From Pseudomonadota bacterium (GTDB taxonomy: Bacteria > Pseudomonadota > Gammaproteobacteria > Burkholderiales > JABEVD01): 39,062 nt of DNA. Both the position numbers and the translations under genes were made by a program. Location: positions 1-39,062 of the forward strand of contig JAJZRP010000018.1 in assembly GCA_021802655.1 (NCBI GenBank). The letters run 5' to 3'. Below are positions 6,763 to 17,815 of this stretch, piece by piece. Numbering within the stretch: the stretch's first letter is position 1; each line of letters begins with the position of its first letter. The notes under the pieces were generated by a model that saw only the letters and a program-made list of their open reading frames with translations, made no database searches and was not told the DNA's origin.

Positions 6763-8058
6763 TCAGGCAGCCTGTTGCTTGGCTTTGATTTTCGCGACTT
6801 CCTCGTCCCACCCGTCGGTCCTGACATAGGGATTCATTCTGGGGCTCGCAACCATGTTCGGGTCGACATCGATACCCATCGCATCCAGGAAATTGACCAG
6901 ACCGATGCGCTCGATCATTTCCCCGGTACGCTCGTGCTCCAGCGCGTTCTCGGCAAAGAAATCGATGATGCGCTGACCGAGATCGACGAGCTGCTCCATG
7001 TCCTCGTCCGTTTCGAGCTTCATGAAGGGAACCACAACAGTGCCCATCAGATCGCCGATCTTCAGCGTACGCTTGCCACCGACGAGAACCGTCGCACCCT
7101 TGTCCTTGCCGGGGGAGAGCGCGCCCGTCATGACGTTGATGCAGTGCATGCAGCGCACGCAGTCGTGATTGTCGATTTCCACGGCATGGGTGTCGCTGAC
7201 TGCGACGCTGGAGATATGCTCTCCCTTCTTCACATCCTTGATTTCTTTCAACTGGAAAGCCTTGGTCGGGCAGCGCGCCACGACGTCGTTGACGAGCTCG
7301 TTCATGCCGTGCCTGGCAAACCACTTTTTCGCCAGCGCCTCATCCGTCCTGATGTTGTCGCGCCAAGTGCCGATGACCGCCATGTCGGCACGCTGGATCG
7401 AATTCATGCAGTCGTTGGGGCAACCGGAAAACTTGAATTTGAACTTGTAGGGCAGCGAAGGGCGATGAATATCGTCGACGAAGGTATTGAGCACCATGCG
7501 ATGCGCCTTGGCTTCGTCGTAGCAGGATTGCTCGCAGCGGGCAGCACCCACGCAGGACATGGAGGTGCGCACGGCAGGACCCGCACCGCCCAGGTCGAAG
7601 CCGAGCTCGTTGATCTCGTCGAATGCACCCTGGACATTATCGGTCGTCGCACCCTGGAACATGATGTCGCCGGACTGGCCGTGGAAGGCGATCAACCCCG
7701 AGCCATGGCGCTCCCAGATGTCCGCCATCTTGCGCAGCACATCCGTGTTGTAGTGCATTCCGGGAGGAGGCTGCACGCGCAGGGTATGGAATTCGGCAGC
7801 ATCCTTGTAAATCGGCTCGCCTTTCTCATCCTTGAGTTCTGTAAAGCGCGGGATGATCCCGCCGCCGTAGCCAAAAACCCCGACCGTTCCGCCCTTCCAG
7901 TAGCCCTTCTTGGTCTGGTATGAAGTTTCGAGCTGGCCGAGCAAATCGACCGCCATGTCATTATCCTGAGCCAGGCGTTTCAGACCCGTAACGAAGCTGG
8001 GCCACGGGCCTTTCTCGAGTTCATCGAGATTCGGCGTGTCATGCAATTTCTTAGCCAT
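6763..8058 (-). CDS. dsrA: Dissimilatory (reverse-type) sulfite reductase alpha subunit
   Basis: Siroheme/4Fe-4S motifs (CVGAARCEQSC...FSGCPNDCMNS) and ferredoxin CVRCMHC; start MAKKLHDTPNLDELEKGPWPSFV chosen after a ribosome-binding-like aggagg. Confidence 0.96.
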   Translation of the reverse strand: MAKKLHDTPNLDELEKGPWPSFVTGLKRLAQDNDMAVDLLGQLETSYQTKKGYWKGGTVGVFGYGGGIIPRFTELKDEKGEPIYKDAAEFHTLRVQPPPGMHYNTDVLRKMADIWERHGSGLIAFHGQSGDIMFQGATTDNVQGAFDEINELGFDLGGAGPAVRTSMSCVGAARCEQSCYDEAKAHRMVLNTFVDDIHRPSLPYKFKFKFSGCPNDCMNSIQRADMAVIGTWRDNIRTDEALAKKWFARHGMNELVNDVVARCPTKAFQLKEIKDVKKGEHISSVAVSDTHAVEIDNHDCVRCMHCINVMTGALSPGKDKGATVLVGGKRTLKIGDLMGTVVVPFMKLETDEDMEQLVDLGQRIIDFFAENALEHERTGEMIERIGLVNFLDAMGIDVDPNMVASPRMNPYVRTDGWDEEVAKIKAKQQAA

Positions 8059-8180
8059 GAATCCTCCTACACATGAAGTTATGGAAAGGTCCTTTCGAAC
8101 CCCTGGCGATCTTGGCCGCCTGTATTCTAGACGCTCCGCCACCTGTACTATATTAGACAAGCCTGATAGTGCTGTGTAAA

Positions 8181-8225
8181 CTACCCTTCAGGGTTATGCC
8201 GCCACCCCCCCTATTGGCTATAGAC
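8181..8225 (-). promoter_or_regulatory. Composite motif site A in the dsrA / plus-operon divergent promoter region
   Basis: Reverse strand reads GTCTATAGCCAATAGGGGGGGTGGCGGCATAACCCTGAAGGGTAG; aligns with sites B (13540-13587) and C (15917-15958). Confidence 0.65.
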
Positions 8226-8309
8226 GCTTGAGCCTTGCGTCACGCCCAATATGGCTTAATATTGATATAGCAGATTTCCATGTTTTTATCACCTTCACTC
8301 TAGGAAACG

Positions 8310-8525
8310 ATGATGAAAATCAGCGAACTGGAAAAGTTCAGGATACCGCTGGGCAGCCAGGAAATCGAACTGCAGCAGATCGATTATGCCGAAGGCGGCA
8401 TGAGCTTGCTGCGGTTGCGCATCCGGGAGGGCAAGCGCTTCACCATATTCGACATCGACCCCGTGACCGCGAAACAATGGGCCAATGCAATGCAGACCTG
8501 GGCGGATTCCGTCGATGGCAAATGA
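8310..8525 (+). CDS. Small uncharacterised conserved-looking protein (71 aa), first gene of the divergent operon
   Basis: MMKISELEKFRIPLGSQEIELQQIDYAEGGMSLLRLRIREGKRFTIFDIDPVTAKQWANAMQTWADSVDGK; overlaps the next gene; possibly a DUF6967-type protein, recalled and not verified. Confidence 0.75.
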   Translation: MMKISELEKFRIPLGSQEIELQQIDYAEGGMSLLRLRIREGKRFTIFDIDPVTAKQWANAMQTWADSVDGK

Positions 8526-9108
8526 AATGACCGACATCCGCTTCGATCTCGAAGGAAGATTCGTACCGGAAGCCTATGCCTTTCCCCTGTGGAGCGAGGT
8601 CACGAGGATCCTGCCGGAACTGGAAGATTTCGAGCTTGCAGGAATACTGCCGCTGAAGGGTGCGGCAAGCAGTGAAGGCATGCTGCTGCCCAGGCGCACC
8701 AAGCTCGCACTGCGCATTCCCGCAAGCTTCGTTCAGAATGCGCTGGAATTAACGGGAAAGACCCTCAATATCGAAGGCAATCCGCTGCATGTCGGGACCG
8801 GAACCCTCAGGAAACTCGAAGCTTATCCCACGCTGCGGTCGCAATTCGTGGCAAGCGAAAAAATCGAGACGGATTTCCTCGAAGAAGTCGAGGGAATACT
8901 GGAGAAGCTTGAGATATCCTGCAAATGGATCTGCGGCAGGAGGCAAACCCTGAAGAGCGGGGAAACAATCATCTCGGGTTACAGCCTGGCGGTGCATGAT
9001 CTCAAGCCGCCCGCCTCGATCCGGCTACAGCAGGTGGGACTGGGGAATTACCGTCGCTTCGGCTGCGGCATATTCGTCCCCCACAAGACGATAGCCGGCC
9101 TTGACTGA
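8515..9108 (+). CDS. Cas6/Cmx6-like (MYXAN-type Cas6) RAMP-fold protein, not CRISPR-associated here
   Basis: About 197 aa; C-terminal Gly-rich loop GLGNYRRFGCGIFVPHKTI fits the Cas6 GhGxxxxxGhG pattern; overall resembles the Cmx6 family. Start could also be 8527. Confidence 0.7.
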   Translation: MANEMTDIRFDLEGRFVPEAYAFPLWSEVTRILPELEDFELAGILPLKGAASSEGMLLPRRTKLALRIPASFVQNALELTGKTLNIEGNPLHVGTGTLRKLEAYPTLRSQFVASEKIETDFLEEVEGILEKLEISCKWICGRRQTLKSGETIISGYSLAVHDLKPPASIRLQQVGLGNYRRFGCGIFVPHKTIAGLD

Positions 9109-9144
9109 CCGGAAGATTTTTCATTTCGTTTGGAGACAATAAAA

Positions 9145-9474
9145 ATGGCATATCATATCAATGGGGTTGACGTCGCAACCGATGACGATGGCTATTTGCT
9201 CGAGGCAGACTACACCAGCGAGGCGGTCGAAGTCATCGCTGCGGCAGAAGGCATTGCACTCACGCCGGATCACTGGAAGGTCGTCGATTATATGCGCGAC
9301 CAATACCGCGAGCACGGCCACACGCCCAATTTCAGGAACATGCTGAAGGAGGTTCAGGAATTCTGGCCCGAGGCGGACAGCAAGGCGCTCTATGACCTCT
9401 TCCCAATGGGACCTGCAAAGCAGGGCGCGAAAGTGGCCGGTCTGCCCCAGCCTTATGGAAAAGGCGGATACTGA
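9145..9474 (+). CDS. DsrC/TusE/RspA-family protein lacking both conserved C-terminal cysteines (RspA-type)
   Basis: MAYHINGVDVATDDDGYLLEADYTSEAVEVIAAAEGIALTPDHWKVVDYMRDQYREHGHTPNFRNML...YDLFPMGPAKQGAKVAGLPQPYGKGGY, aligned to DsrC ...FPYGPGKQACKVAGLPKPTGCI. Confidence 0.92.
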   Translation: MAYHINGVDVATDDDGYLLEADYTSEAVEVIAAAEGIALTPDHWKVVDYMRDQYREHGHTPNFRNMLKEVQEFWPEADSKALYDLFPMGPAKQGAKVAGLPQPYGKGGY

Positions 9475-9485
9475 AGGAAATCAAA

Positions 9486-9965
9486 ATGGAAAAATTCAAT
9501 GCCAATGTCGTACTGAATGTGAAGGGAACGACCTGTCCCGGCCCCCTTCTGGGGGCCAAAAGGATGGTGGACGAACTCGGGGCAGGGCAAATCCTGCTTC
9601 TGATATCCGACTGCCCCGGCACTCAGGATGACCTTTTCGCCTGGACGAGGCAGACCGACAACCAGGTTGTGCATACCGAAAAGCTGCCGGACGGGGGAAC
9701 GGGCTATTACATCAAGAAAGGCAGGGGCCACGAATACCATGCCAACGTGCTGCTCGACATTCGCGGCGTGCTCTGCCCGGGACCCATCGTCGAAGCCAAA
9801 AAACTTCTCAACGGCATGCAGTCCGGCGAAATCCTGAAGCTCACCAGCAACTGTCCAGGAATCCGCTCCGACATCGAGGGCTGGGCAAAAACGACCGGCA
9901 TGAGCATCCTCGAAGCAGCGGAAATCGCTCCCGGCGAATACGATTTCTACATCCGGAAGGGATGA
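9486..9965 (+). CDS. Tandem TusA-domain fusion protein (two sulfurtransferase domains)
   Basis: 159 aa with internal duplication: LNVKGTTCPGPLLGAKRMVDEL..LISDCPGTQDDLFAW and LDIRGVLCPGPIVEAKKLLNGM..LTSNCPGIRSDIEGW. Confidence 0.9.
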   Translation: MEKFNANVVLNVKGTTCPGPLLGAKRMVDELGAGQILLLISDCPGTQDDLFAWTRQTDNQVVHTEKLPDGGTGYYIKKGRGHEYHANVLLDIRGVLCPGPIVEAKKLLNGMQSGEILKLTSNCPGIRSDIEGWAKTTGMSILEAAEIAPGEYDFYIRKG

Positions 9966-10561
9966 TGCGGGTCAAGAGCCGCTGGTTCAAAAGCAATCGG
10001 GAAAAGTCCCCGCAGGAAATCGCAGGCGCTGCAGCCTTCATCCTGTGGAAAATCGCCCAGAACGCGCTCAAGAACATGAGGAGCGCCGATTTCGACATCG
10101 AAGCCGGCCCGCAGTACTTCGATTATCTCCGGGAATTCCTGATTTTCCTGGTGCAGATCGCGGACAGGATCGCCTTTGAAAAAATGGATCATGATTCCAG
10201 GGTGGCCTTCACCACCGAACTTGCGCTCAGGGTCGCCGAAAATTTTGCAGAGAACAGGAGCGCCCTGCTGGGACTGTCTTTGGGGGCATGCAAAAGCGAA
10301 TTCATAGATCGTTACAACGAACGCTCGAACGTCTATTCGGAATGCGGCTTTGGTGAGGACGGCCCCGATTTCGCCTTCATCCGCTATCTCGGACATTCCA
10401 TACTGGAATTCTGCGAGGAAAGGGACAAGAGCTGGGTCGTCGACCGGATCATGGCCATCGAAGCTCCCGAAGCCGTCTCGACGGTGCAAAGGGCCATGAA
10501 AGGGCTGCTCGAAGAAGAATCCGCCGAGCAAAGGCTGGGGTCCGGAATCGGCCCGGACTGA
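9962..10561 (+). CDS. Uncharacterised protein, translationally coupled to the TusA-TusA gene
   Basis: 199 aa ORF; start overlaps the preceding stop (ATGATG); no family recognised. Confidence 0.75.
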   Translation: MMRVKSRWFKSNREKSPQEIAGAAAFILWKIAQNALKNMRSADFDIEAGPQYFDYLREFLIFLVQIADRIAFEKMDHDSRVAFTTELALRVAENFAENRSALLGLSLGACKSEFIDRYNERSNVYSECGFGEDGPDFAFIRYLGHSILEFCEERDKSWVVDRIMAIEAPEAVSTVQRAMKGLLEEESAEQRLGSGIGPD

Positions 10562-10562
10562 A

Positions 10563-11384
10563 ATGGACCGGAATACCTACCTTTCATGGCGGGAAGCGAA
10601 ATTCAGGGAAAGCCCCGCGTCCGTGAACGAACTGATCGTCGAAGTAAAAAATCCCGAGGCGCTGACGCAATCCGAGTTCGATGCGATACGGGCAAGGATA
10701 CTCAGAGCCAACATGGCGATCTACGCGAGCCCCGTACCCGATATCGACATGAGGTGCTTCGGCAGGCAGTTCGGACTCGAAAATCTCGATGCCAACTGGC
10801 TGGCCGGGGAAGACGGCGTTTCCAGAATCGCCGTCTCGGAAAGCGGCCAGGGCTACATTCCCTACACCGACAAGCCGATCAAATGGCATACCGACGGCTA
10901 TTACAATCCGATTGATCGGAAAATCCGTGCGATGCTGCTGCATTGCGTACAGGATGCCGAAATCGGCGGGGAGAACCGGCTGATGGATCACGAGATCCTG
11001 TATTGCCTGCTCAGGGATGGAAACCCGCAATACATCCGGGCGCTCTCGGAGCCCGACGCGATGACGATTCCCGAAAGAATGGGAGAAGACGGTGTCGCGC
11101 GGGCCGAAGAAACCGGCCCGGTTTTCTCCTTCGATCCCGACGGGCACCTGCACATGCGCTACACTGCGAGAACCCGGTCGATCCGATGGAAGCAGGACGC
11201 CGTCACGCTGGAGGCTGTTGCCGCCATCGAGGCACTGCTGTCCGCCCCTTCCCGGCATGTTTTCCAGGCAAAACTCGAGCCCGGCATGGGGATCGTCTGC
11301 AACAACGTGCTGCACGACCGGTCGGGATTCTCGGGAAACTCGCGCCTGCTCTACCGCGCCCGCTATTACGACCGCATCAAATGA
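10563..11384 (+). CDS. TauD/TfdA-like Fe(II)/2-oxoglutarate-dependent dioxygenase
   Basis: 273 aa; HxD motif in KWHTDGYYNP, distal His in NNVLHDRSGF and downstream Arg (RLLYRARYYDR); starts 1 nt after the previous stop. Confidence 0.87.
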   Translation: MDRNTYLSWREAKFRESPASVNELIVEVKNPEALTQSEFDAIRARILRANMAIYASPVPDIDMRCFGRQFGLENLDANWLAGEDGVSRIAVSESGQGYIPYTDKPIKWHTDGYYNPIDRKIRAMLLHCVQDAEIGGENRLMDHEILYCLLRDGNPQYIRALSEPDAMTIPERMGEDGVARAEETGPVFSFDPDGHLHMRYTARTRSIRWKQDAVTLEAVAAIEALLSAPSRHVFQAKLEPGMGIVCNNVLHDRSGFSGNSRLLYRARYYDRIK

Positions 11385-12722: not shown

Positions 12723-13190
12723 TCAAACGAACAGACAGATATCGGTTTCCCCCGCGAACTCCATGAAGGTTGCCGCACCGCCATATTCGATCCCATCGAT
12801 GAAATCGCTCTTCTCGAATTCGAATAGATCGACCGTCATCTGGCAGGCGATGAACTTGACGTCCGCCTCCTGGCAGAGGCTGCGCAGTTCCTCAAGAGAA
12901 GCGACCCCTTTCTTTTTAAGCTTGTTCTTCATCATCATCGTCGCCATGGATTCCATTCCAGGCAGCATTTGCACGAAAACCGGCATCGGAACCGGCATCG
13001 GCATCGCAGGATTCGCGAGCGGACTGATCTTGACATCGGAAAGATCCTTCTTCAGAAGCTGCAGCCCGTAGAAAGTGAAGAATACCTGTACGTCGTAACC
13101 CAGGGCGGCAGCGGTGGAAGCCAGAATGAATGGCGGATAGGCCATGTCAAGGGTGCCCTTGGTCGCGATGATCGCCATTTTCTTTGTCAT
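12723..13190 (-). CDS. dsrE2: DsrE2-like (DsrE/DsrF/DrsH-like) peroxiredoxin-fold sulfur-transfer protein
   Basis: 155 aa MTKKMAIIATKGTLDMAYPPFILASTAAALGYDVQVFFTFYGLQLLKK...; Met/Pro-rich central segment; adjacent to tusA. Confidence 0.88.
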   Translation of the reverse strand: MTKKMAIIATKGTLDMAYPPFILASTAAALGYDVQVFFTFYGLQLLKKDLSDVKISPLANPAMPMPVPMPVFVQMLPGMESMATMMMKNKLKKKGVASLEELRSLCQEADVKFIACQMTVDLFEFEKSDFIDGIEYGGAATFMEFAGETDICLFV

Positions 13191-13221: not shown

Positions 13222-13449
13222 TTACTTCTTCCTCATGAAGAAGACGTATTCCCCGCCTTCCTCGCTCTGGGAAAGCAACTCGTTTCCGGTCTGCTTGGCA
13301 AAAGCCTGCATGTCCTTGACGGAACCGCAGTCGGTCGAAACAACCTTGAGCACCTGTCCGGAATCCATGTCAGCAAGGGATTTCTTGGTCTTCAGGATGG
13401 GGAGGGGGCAATTGAGGCCGCGTGCGTCGAGTTCTTTCTGAAAATCCAT
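13222..13449 (-). CDS. tusA: TusA family sulfurtransferase
   Basis: MDFQKELDARGLNCPLPILKTKKSLADMDSGQVLKVVSTDCGSVKDM; CPLP active site; start trimmed from the longer ORF. Confidence 0.95.
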   Translation of the reverse strand: MDFQKELDARGLNCPLPILKTKKSLADMDSGQVLKVVSTDCGSVKDMQAFAKQTGNELLSQSEEGGEYVFFMRKK

Positions 13450-13539
13450 AGCTGTCTCCGTAAAATTACAAATCCATGTTTCATCGGCGTGAAACATACT
13501 CGAAATATAATGCTATTAGGCGGAATTTGCCATTCTTGC

Positions 13540-13587
13540 GTCTATAGCCGAAATGGGTAATACCCATATAACCCGCATGGGGGGTAG
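13540..13587 (+). promoter_or_regulatory. Composite motif site B upstream of tusA-dsrE2-fadL, containing a perfect inverted heptamer pair
   Basis: GTCTATAGCCGAAATGGGTAATACCCATATAACCCGCATGGGGGGTAG; ATGGGTA-A-TACCCAT (13553-13567) is a perfect palindrome and matches the NarL heptamer TACYYMT. Confidence 0.7.
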
Positions 13588-15719: not shown

Positions 15720-15916
15720 GGAAGCACCCGTTCCGGCGCCGTTACGGCAACATGGAACAGTCATATGACTTTCATTTTTCGCCCGGATTGCTGCCGGATC
15801 GTGAAATAAGGTCGATAAGGGCATAGGCTTCTGCAATTGGTCAATACGCTAATATATCCCATTGTGCTCAACTCGGCATGAGAACTTCCTTATTAAGCGC
15901 AACCCAGGGGGTATAC

Positions 15917-15958
15917 GTCTATAACCGCAATGGGGGGGCATGCATAACCCCATGAGGG
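15917..15958 (+). promoter_or_regulatory. Composite motif site C between the TauE operon and the two-component system
   Basis: GTCTATAACCGCAATGGGGGGGCATGCATAACCCCATGAGGG; includes inverted repeat ATGGGG-N12-CCCCAT (15930-15953). Confidence 0.65.
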
Positions 15959-16013
15959 AATGGCTTTATCACTATAGTGTTGCAAGGCATGACAAATGAT
16001 TTATAATCCGGGG

Positions 16014-17138
16014 ATGAGCGCAGCAGCGAAGGAATCCGTTCCAGAATCCACGCTCTCGGTCAGCGACGAATGTTCGACGCTGATCGAGGGGTTTCTAGGG
16101 ACGATCGCAAAGATGACAGGCGCAATAGCTGGCGCAGTGCGCGTTCATTCCCCTGATGGGAAGGAACTGCGCCTGGTTGGCTCTTTCGGCTTGCCGCCTG
16201 ACGTCGTCGAATGCGAAGATGCCGTCAATCGTAATTGCGGCGCTTGCGGCATGGCCGCCCGCGGTTCGGGAAATTGCTCATCCGGGGTTGAGGCATGCAT
16301 GCTCCGCAACGGCCGTGGCTTTTTCGGAAAAACCTGTAAATGCATGATCGCCGTTCCTCTTGAGGTCAGGGGAAAAACGACAGGCATCTTCAACCTGTTT
16401 TTTGCCTCGACTCAGGCAATTCCGGAGGAAACCGAAAAGAACCTGCGATCCTTCGGCGAGCTTCTCGGCACCGCTCTGGAAAACTCGATACGCTCCCGCG
16501 AAATCAGAAGAATGGGCCTGATGACGGAGCGGCGACTGATGGCCAACGAAATCCATGATTCCCTTGCCCAGACCCTGATTTACGCGAGAATGCGCATGAG
16601 TCTTTTGTGTGAGGCAATAAAATCCGGAAACGAGAGTCTTACCGGAAAATATGTGAGCGACGTCAATGAAGCGCTGGCTTCGGGTCAGCATGCCGTGCGC
16701 GAACTCATCACCCACTTCCGCAGCCCGATGGACCCGCTGGGGCTGCAGCACGCGCTGCGCGAACTCGTCGACGAATTCAGGGAGCGCACCGGCATCGCTC
16801 TCGACTACACCAACCGTATTGCCGATTTTGTGCTTCCCATCGAATATGAACTCCAGGCATTCCACATCGTCCGGGAGGTTCTGGCCAATGTCGCCATGCA
16901 TTCCAGGGCGACTCGCGCGAGCCTTGCCGTGACTTGCCATGACGGATGCTACCTGTTCACCATCGAGGACAATGGCTCCGGCATTCCCGACATCGTCCCG
17001 AGCGAAGGGCATTATGGCCTGACCATCATGCGCGAACGAGCCATGCGCCTGGGCGGCAAGATCGAGGTGGAAAGTGCGAAAGAGCTTGGCACCAGGGTAA
17101 TGCTGAGTTTCCCGATCACCCAGGAGGTCATGCAATGA
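16014..17138 (+). CDS. Soluble GAF-domain histidine kinase, NarX/NreB-like (HisKA_3) with Cys-rich GAF region
   Basis: ANEIHDSLAQTL H-box; HATPase motif DNGSGIPD; seven Cys in about 55 aa (CEDAVNRNCGACGMAARGSGNCSSGVEACMLRNGRGFFGKTCKC); no TM segment evident; start may be 15996. Confidence 0.9.
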   Translation: MSAAAKESVPESTLSVSDECSTLIEGFLGTIAKMTGAIAGAVRVHSPDGKELRLVGSFGLPPDVVECEDAVNRNCGACGMAARGSGNCSSGVEACMLRNGRGFFGKTCKCMIAVPLEVRGKTTGIFNLFFASTQAIPEETEKNLRSFGELLGTALENSIRSREIRRMGLMTERRLMANEIHDSLAQTLIYARMRMSLLCEAIKSGNESLTGKYVSDVNEALASGQHAVRELITHFRSPMDPLGLQHALRELVDEFRERTGIALDYTNRIADFVLPIEYELQAFHIVREVLANVAMHSRATRASLAVTCHDGCYLFTIEDNGSGIPDIVPSEGHYGLTIMRERAMRLGGKIEVESAKELGTRVMLSFPITQEVMQ

Positions 17139-17815
17139 ACGAACCCATTCGCATCGTTCTGGTCGACGATCATTGCCTGTGCCGGCGCGGGCTCACCGAA
17201 CTTTTCGACCACTGCTACGGTATCTCCGTGGTGGGCGGTACCGGCAATGCAACCGAAGTGATCCCCATTCTGGAGGCGCAGCGGCCAGACCTTCTGATCA
17301 TGGATCTGCGCATGGAGCCTGTCGATGGCCTGACCCTGCTCGACCAGATCAGAAAATCGGGCTGCGATACGCCTGTGGCGATCCTGACGATGAGCGATTC
17401 GGAATCCGATCTTGCCAAGGCAATGCGCCTGGGCGCGAAGGGCTACCTCTTGAAAGACATGGACCCCGAAGATGTCGTCAGTGCGGTGCGACGCATCGCC
17501 AGCGGCGAACTCGTCGTTGCTCCGGCCATGACCATGAAACTGATGCATTTCCTGCAGCATGGTCAACAGGATCATCATGTGCGCAAAAATTCTCTCGAAC
17601 TTCTGACCGAGCGCGAGCGGGAAATCCTGCAGCATCTGGCGCGCGGAGAAAGCAACAAGGTCATTGCAAGGACGCTCGACATCAGCTACGACACAGTCAA
17701 GCAGCATGTCCGCCATATCCTGTTCAAACTCAAGCTGGCATCCCGCGTGGAGGCAGCCGTTTTCGCCGTCGAGCAGAGGGCAAAAGAAGGTCGGGTTCCC
17801 TCGCCAAGCCACTAG
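17135..17815 (+). CDS. NarL/FixJ-family response regulator with LuxR-type HTH
   Basis: MNEPIRIVLVDDHCLCRRGL receiver domain and LLTEREREILQHLARGESNKVIARTLDISYDTVKQHVRHILFKL HTH; ATGA overlap with the kinase stop. Confidence 0.95.
   Translation: MNEPIRIVLVDDHCLCRRGLTELFDHCYGISVVGGTGNATEVIPILEAQRPDLLIMDLRMEPVDGLTLLDQIRKSGCDTPVAILTMSDSESDLAKAMRLGAKGYLLKDMDPEDVVSAVRRIASGELVVAPAMTMKLMHFLQHGQQDHHVRKNSLELLTEREREILQHLARGESNKVIARTLDISYDTVKQHVRHILFKLKLASRVEAAVFAVEQRAKEGRVPSPSH

Follow-up and report, generated by a model that had tools for sequence, protein, structure and literature searches.

The stretch of 39,062 nucleotides analysed here (the window) carries dsrA and an operon divergent from it, and between them lies a 45-base element, site A. 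Two related elements, sites B and C, are found upstream of tusA-dsrE2 and next to the genes of a soluble sensor kinase and a response regulator. The coordinates are given in Table 1.

Table 1. Features of the window discussed in the text, with positions counted from its first base.
Feature	Position	Strand	Remarks
Site A, composite operator (putative)	8181..8225	-	Between dsrA (left) and DUF6967 operon (right)
Dyad I of site A	8209..8225	-	GTCTATAGCC-AATA-GGG
Dyad II of site A (dsrA-proximal)	8181..8196	-	TAACCCT-GA-AGGGTAG, NarL-like 7-2-7 geometry
dsrA -10 TAATAT	8150..8155	-	33 nt from dyad II centre in 9/9 genomes
dsrA weak -35 candidate TTTACA	8175..8180	-	19-nt spacer, conserved 9/9
Divergent -10 TAATAT of DUF6967 operon	8257..8262	+	43 nt from dyad I centre; TAATAT 7/9, TATTAT 2/9
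dsrA, target gene (proposed)	6763..8058	-	TIGR02064, 516.8 bits
Divergent operon	8310..11384	+	DUF6967, Cas6-family protein, DsrC-like, tandem TusA-like, unknown, TauD-like
tusA, target gene (proposed)	13222..13449	-	Followed by dsrE2 (12723-13190)
tusA -10 TAATAG	13513..13518	-	33 nt from dyad I centre in 7/7 genomes
Site B, composite operator (putative)	13540..13584	+	Upstream of tusA-dsrE2
Leftward -10 TAATAA, TauE-like operon	15890..15895	-	33 nt from dyad I centre
Site C, composite operator (putative)	15917..15958	+	Between kinase gene (right) and TauE-like/USP operon (left)
Kinase-gene -10 TATAAT	16002..16007	+	TTGCAA at 15980-15985, 16-nt spacer; 48-50 nt from dyad II centre, 8/8
Soluble sensor kinase	16014..17138	+	GAF-HisKA_3-HATPase, NarX/NarQ-like C-terminal half
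NarL-type response regulator, presumed binder of sites A-C	17135..17815	+	Receiver + LuxR/GerE HTH

Anatomy of site A and promoter geometry

On the minus strand, positions 8225-8181 read GTCTATAGCC-AATA-GGGGGGGTGGCGGCA-TAACCCTGAAGGGTAG. The sequence-only reading had placed this element 123-167 nt upstream of dsrA and also upstream of the divergent operon, and both positions are borne out, with the dsrA ATG at 8058 and the first divergent gene (8310) 85 nt away. Its kinship with sites at 13540 and 15917, both on the plus strand, was confirmed by matches in the window, and the remark that dsrA lacks a strong -35 also holds, the best candidate being TTTACA, 19 nt from a good -10 TAATAT. Site A is present in 9/9 genomes of the genus and also in G317, where its second half is degraded. 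The motif blocks are conserved while much of the intergenic DNA varies.

Each site is composed of dyad I (GTCTATARCC-N4/5-GGG) and dyad II (TARCCC-N4/5-GGG), with centres 22.5-26 bp apart. Conservation of the columns that the search pattern covers is a product of the search itself, which does not apply to the GT preceding CTATA, to the third G or to most of dyad II. In the dsrA promoter, dyad II has the 7-2-7 arrangement of NarL sites, and the spacing CCC-N4-GGG is found in most sites, with N5 in some. The NarL heptamer TACYYMT has C at position 3, a position which here is mostly A or G (the purine of dyad I being set by the pattern). The NarL site used for comparison with dyad II was TACCCCTAAAGGGGTA (PMC4549865), and 11/16 bases of the NarL probe TACCCCT-AA-AGGGGTA (PMC4549865) are identical in dyad II at dsrA.

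The distance to the promoter boxes is also regular. When 50 sites were read leftward from the dyad I centre, TAATA started at 33 nt in 19 and at 32 or 34 nt in 4; in 7 others it started at 43 nt, one helical turn further, and otherwise only twice. On the other side, the distance from dyad II rightward to the start of the dsrA box is 33 nt in every one of the nine genomes. The five sat sites that have no divergent gene lack the leftward box, and the one with a divergent soeA has it. At the sat sites the second half is shorter, and no -10 can be identified at 33 nt. With a -10 starting at a distance of 33 nt, the centre of the dyad falls near -45, and the NarL positions are -40/-49 at napF and -38/-47 at yeaR (PMC4549865). 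Site A is supported in this refined form, as two dyads that would serve both directions, with the dsrA-proximal dyad predicted near -45.

Recurrence of the motif in the genome, the genus and the order

Pattern searches were performed, each with the reversed pattern as control. The short word GTCTATARCC has 3 matches in the 2.01-Mb draft genome, all within the window, compared with 5 for the reversed control. The composite pattern CTATARCCN{3,6}GGN{5,16}ATARCC gave 4 matches in this genome (G000) against 0 reversed, a recurrence far beyond chance, and all four sites flank sulfur-oxidation genes or the gene of the presumed regulator. The fourth match lies on another contig (G000:C4:23030), upstream of sat, which is followed by a QmoC/AprM-like membrane protein gene, aprB and aprA; sat (521.8 bits), aprB (211.7) and aprA (1086.2) all score above their curated NCBIfam cut-offs. 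Over the nine genomes of the genus, 29 composite matches were found against 2 in the reversed control.

The genome-wide scan proposed in the sequence-only reading, carried out here as a pattern search, thus returned further matches upstream of sulfur genes: 28 of the 29 lie at dsrA, tusA, the NarX-like kinase gene or sat, and the sole exception is G007:C20:20411. The matches are not scattered, and the copies in G000 (n = 4) are all intergenic. Overall, the earlier interpretation of site A is largely supported. All four soeA-like genes of the genus also have an upstream site, which is common with the kinase gene in G002 and G007, common with sat in G001, and a one-mismatch match in G004. Patterns for a single dyad with one mismatch were rejected; they gave about 5-23 matches in each genome, which in many of them was close to the control. 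In G007, tusA and its site are parted by an inserted gene, predicted from its appearance to encode a transposase.

A slightly different pattern was applied to 398 genomes of the order. Inside the nine genus members there were 27 matches against 0 in the control; outside the genus there were 11 against about 26 control matches, and so isolated matches there mean nothing without context. Beyond the genus, five matches belong to family f25, recognized as Gallionellaceae from the named loci that match it, and one, in G317 of another family, stands upstream of dsrA. Sporadic matches in G048, G111, G289, G297 and G307 were taken as chance because they fall below control rates. The alignment of the regulator also retrieved 80 named loci, 1.30 Mb in all, in which (A/G)TCTATARCC-N-GG has 27 matches against 3 reversed; this TCTATARCC-anchored pattern replaced a loose two-dyad expression, which had given 23 matches against 19 reversed.

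In these relatives, mainly Gallionellaceae, the motif stands beside soeA-like, Qmo-like (with yfcE) and sqr-like genes, names that were given from context and from partial matches to families, none of them by an equivalog cut-off, and it adjoins orthologues of the kinase and regulator genes. Some sites lie between the kinase gene and a divergent gene for a 970-aa molybdopterin protein taken as soeA; others lie between the kinase gene and a divergent yfcE-like phosphodiesterase gene, followed in several loci by Qmo/HdrA-like genes; further sites adjoin the regulator gene and that of an sqr-like flavoprotein.

Association with the kinase and the response regulator

The regulator encoded at 17135-17815 belongs to the NarL/FixJ type (PF00072, 90.5 bits; PF00196, 68.7 bits), and its nearest PDB relative is NarL (1a04, E 2e-47). 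The kinase is not a full-length NarX or NarQ, since it scores 171 bits against a cut-off of 553 for NarQ and 128 against 578 for NarX; the resemblance is confined to the C-terminal half, and the N-terminus is a GAF domain. An ATG at 15996 would overlap the -10, which makes 16014 the likelier start. Among 30 aligned kinases, Cys81 is found in all and Cys101 in 28.

In many relatives, about 1.3-1.4 kb separate the motif from the regulator gene downstream of it. When loci were sorted by the recognition helix of the regulator, the motif was present at 30/41 loci with SYDTVKQHVRHI compared with 4/48 with SHDTVKLHVRHI, and close variants (one-base or half-site) were found at nine more loci of the Q-helix clade. 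In the tree, the Q-type clade (support 100/99) has 44 rows, of which 38 carry the motif and four others belong to a Piscinibacter-type branch with a variant site. Judging by the NarL-DNA structure and the alignment to NarL, the helix residue that varies lies at the position of NarL Val189. The regulator is present in all five motif-bearing Gallionellaceae and in G317, and four Gallionellaceae without it have no motif. By neighbourhood, by presence and absence and by recognition helix, the site tracks with the regulator, an association along phylogeny. Since the association follows phylogeny and many related NarL-type regulators (Thiobacillus, Sulfuricella, Sulfuritalea) occur without the motif, it may, with lower probability, reflect a hitch-hiking neighbour.

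Two groups of relatives are recorded separately. In the Piscinibacter-type loci L169, L177, L195 and L228, the variant site GTCTATAGCC-GGGAC-GGG lies beside soeA-like genes, and in L169 and L177 its second half is TACCC. The loci L181, L196, L197, L214 and similar ones (Thiobacillus, Sulfuricella, Sulfuritalea) form a sister clade of the regulator with an SHDTVKL helix and without the operator; a k-mer search upstream of these SHDTVKL-type systems found no shared operator, and its top words resemble coding sequence.

A putative regulon and its comparison with known systems

Taking together the sequence and conservation of the motif, its gene neighbourhood, the promoter spacing and the regulator association, we consider with good confidence that site A belongs to a dedicated sulfur-oxidation regulon, as the operator through which the adjacent NarL-type two-component system would act. 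In the mechanism that we infer, the regulator would receive its phosphoryl group from the soluble NarX-like GAF kinase, whose gene lies just upstream, and each of the two near-palindromic half-operators, ATARCC-N4/5-GGG and TAACCC-N4/5-GGG, would presumably be bound by a regulator dimer. Dyad I would act on the promoter to its left and dyad II on that to its right, each from near -45 as for a class-II-type activator, so that the regulator would probably activate its targets from a bidirectional operator. The signal is perhaps a reduced sulfur species or a redox state perceived through Cys81/Cys101, a guess from the conserved cysteines and the targets. The proposed regulon in G000 comprises dsrAB and its operon, the divergent DsrC/TusA-like operon, tusA-dsrE2, the TauE-like/USP operon, sat-aprMBA and the system's own genes; in relatives it would additionally include soe, Qmo-like and sqr-like genes. 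The kinase promoter is spaced unlike the others (48-50 nt) and has a fair -35, which suggests that regulation there may use another geometry or be negative.

Three alternatives were weighed. It is unlikely, though the least so of the three, that the regulator is a repressor which keeps the sulfur genes off until a signal arrives. NarL does repress many promoters, including frdA (PMC4549865), and the kinase promoter with its fair -35 (TTGCAA, 16-nt spacer) need not be activated; against this, the dyads at dsrA and tusA lie upstream of the -10 region and not over it, and the dsrA -35 is poor, both typical of activation, and activation is also the mode of RsrR, which responds to sulfur but belongs to another class of response regulators (PMC5093147).

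We regard it as improbable that the operator and regulon are as proposed but are bound by another DNA-binding protein, with the two-component system only one of its targets. The draft MAG G003 (about 170 contigs) could be read in this way: it keeps two sites, at dsrA and sat (L110 5068 and L281 8208), and no kinase or regulator orthologue was found in it, which reflects either an assembly gap or loss. The frequency of related regulators without the motif points in the same direction. The association of the motif with the recognition helix, the NarL-like dyad geometry and the repeated placement of a site directly before the kinase-regulator operon in several families argue instead for the regulator itself. 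That the block has a structural role instead, as a repeat, terminator hairpin or transposon end, which its G-rich runs and inverted repeats might suggest, is scarcely credible and was rejected, as it is contradicted by the distribution and spacing of the sites: only four copies, all intergenic beside sulfur genes, with promoter boxes at fixed spacing.

Under the preferred reading, the 45-base element very probably marks a previously undescribed sulfur-oxidation switch common to several groups of environmental bacteria. A literature search, with most subscription journals outside its reach, returned no description of the operator or of a NarL-type dsr regulator; the sulfur regulators described there fall into other classes and use other operators, and to our knowledge the way in which reverse-acting dsr genes are switched on in sulfur oxidisers is poorly known. 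More tentatively, a cytoplasmic two-component system derived from NarX/NarL, sensing reduced sulfur or thiol redox by its GAF cysteine pair, could control the reverse-Dsr pathway (dsr, apr-sat, soe, Qmo-like, sqr-like) as its master switch in several groups of sulfur and iron oxidisers among the beta-proteobacteria, acting through the bidirectional double-dyad operator. The analysis provides a candidate regulator, operator, promoters and target list conserved across families, with which sulfur-oxidation regulons would become readable from genomes of uncultured Gallionellaceae and their relatives.

When compared to NarX/NarQ-NarL of E. coli, the system shares the regulator family and domain order (PDB 1a04, E 2e-47), the C-terminal half of the kinase, and, in its sites, the CCC-N4-GGG dyad and the position near -45 (napF, yeaR; PMC4549865). 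It differs in the half-site (TARCCC here, TACCCC for NarL), in the recognition helix (Gln here, Val in NarL), in the pairing of dyads about 25 bp apart, in the soluble GAF sensor without a periplasmic nitrate domain, and in its targets, which are sulfur genes. RsrS-RsrR and TspS-TspR of Acidithiobacillus caldus likewise place genes of inorganic sulfur oxidation under two-component control, but they belong to the OmpR-like and sigma-54-dependent classes, with operators AACACCTGTTACACCTGTT and TGTCCCAAATGGGACA and targets tetH and sox (PMC5093147, PMC6335251). In Hyphomicrobium denitrificans, sHdrR and SoxR also control sulfur oxidation at the level of a regulon; they are, however, ArsR-type one-component sulfane-sulfur repressors of shdr/sox genes, not two-component systems, and do not control dsrAB (PMC12423496).

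Two genes of the divergent operon deserve separate mention. The Cas6-family gene (8515-9108, plus strand) matches PF09559 and, above the cut-off, TIGR02807 cas6_cmx6 (136.6 bits). No CRISPR-like array was seen in the window between 7000 and 20000, and the protein is possibly a repurposed RNA-binding protein. The block that contains it (DUF6967, DsrC-like, TusA-like) is conserved across the genus and in G317 (L232). The reading frame at 9486-9965 (plus strand) encodes a single chain with two TusA-like stretches.
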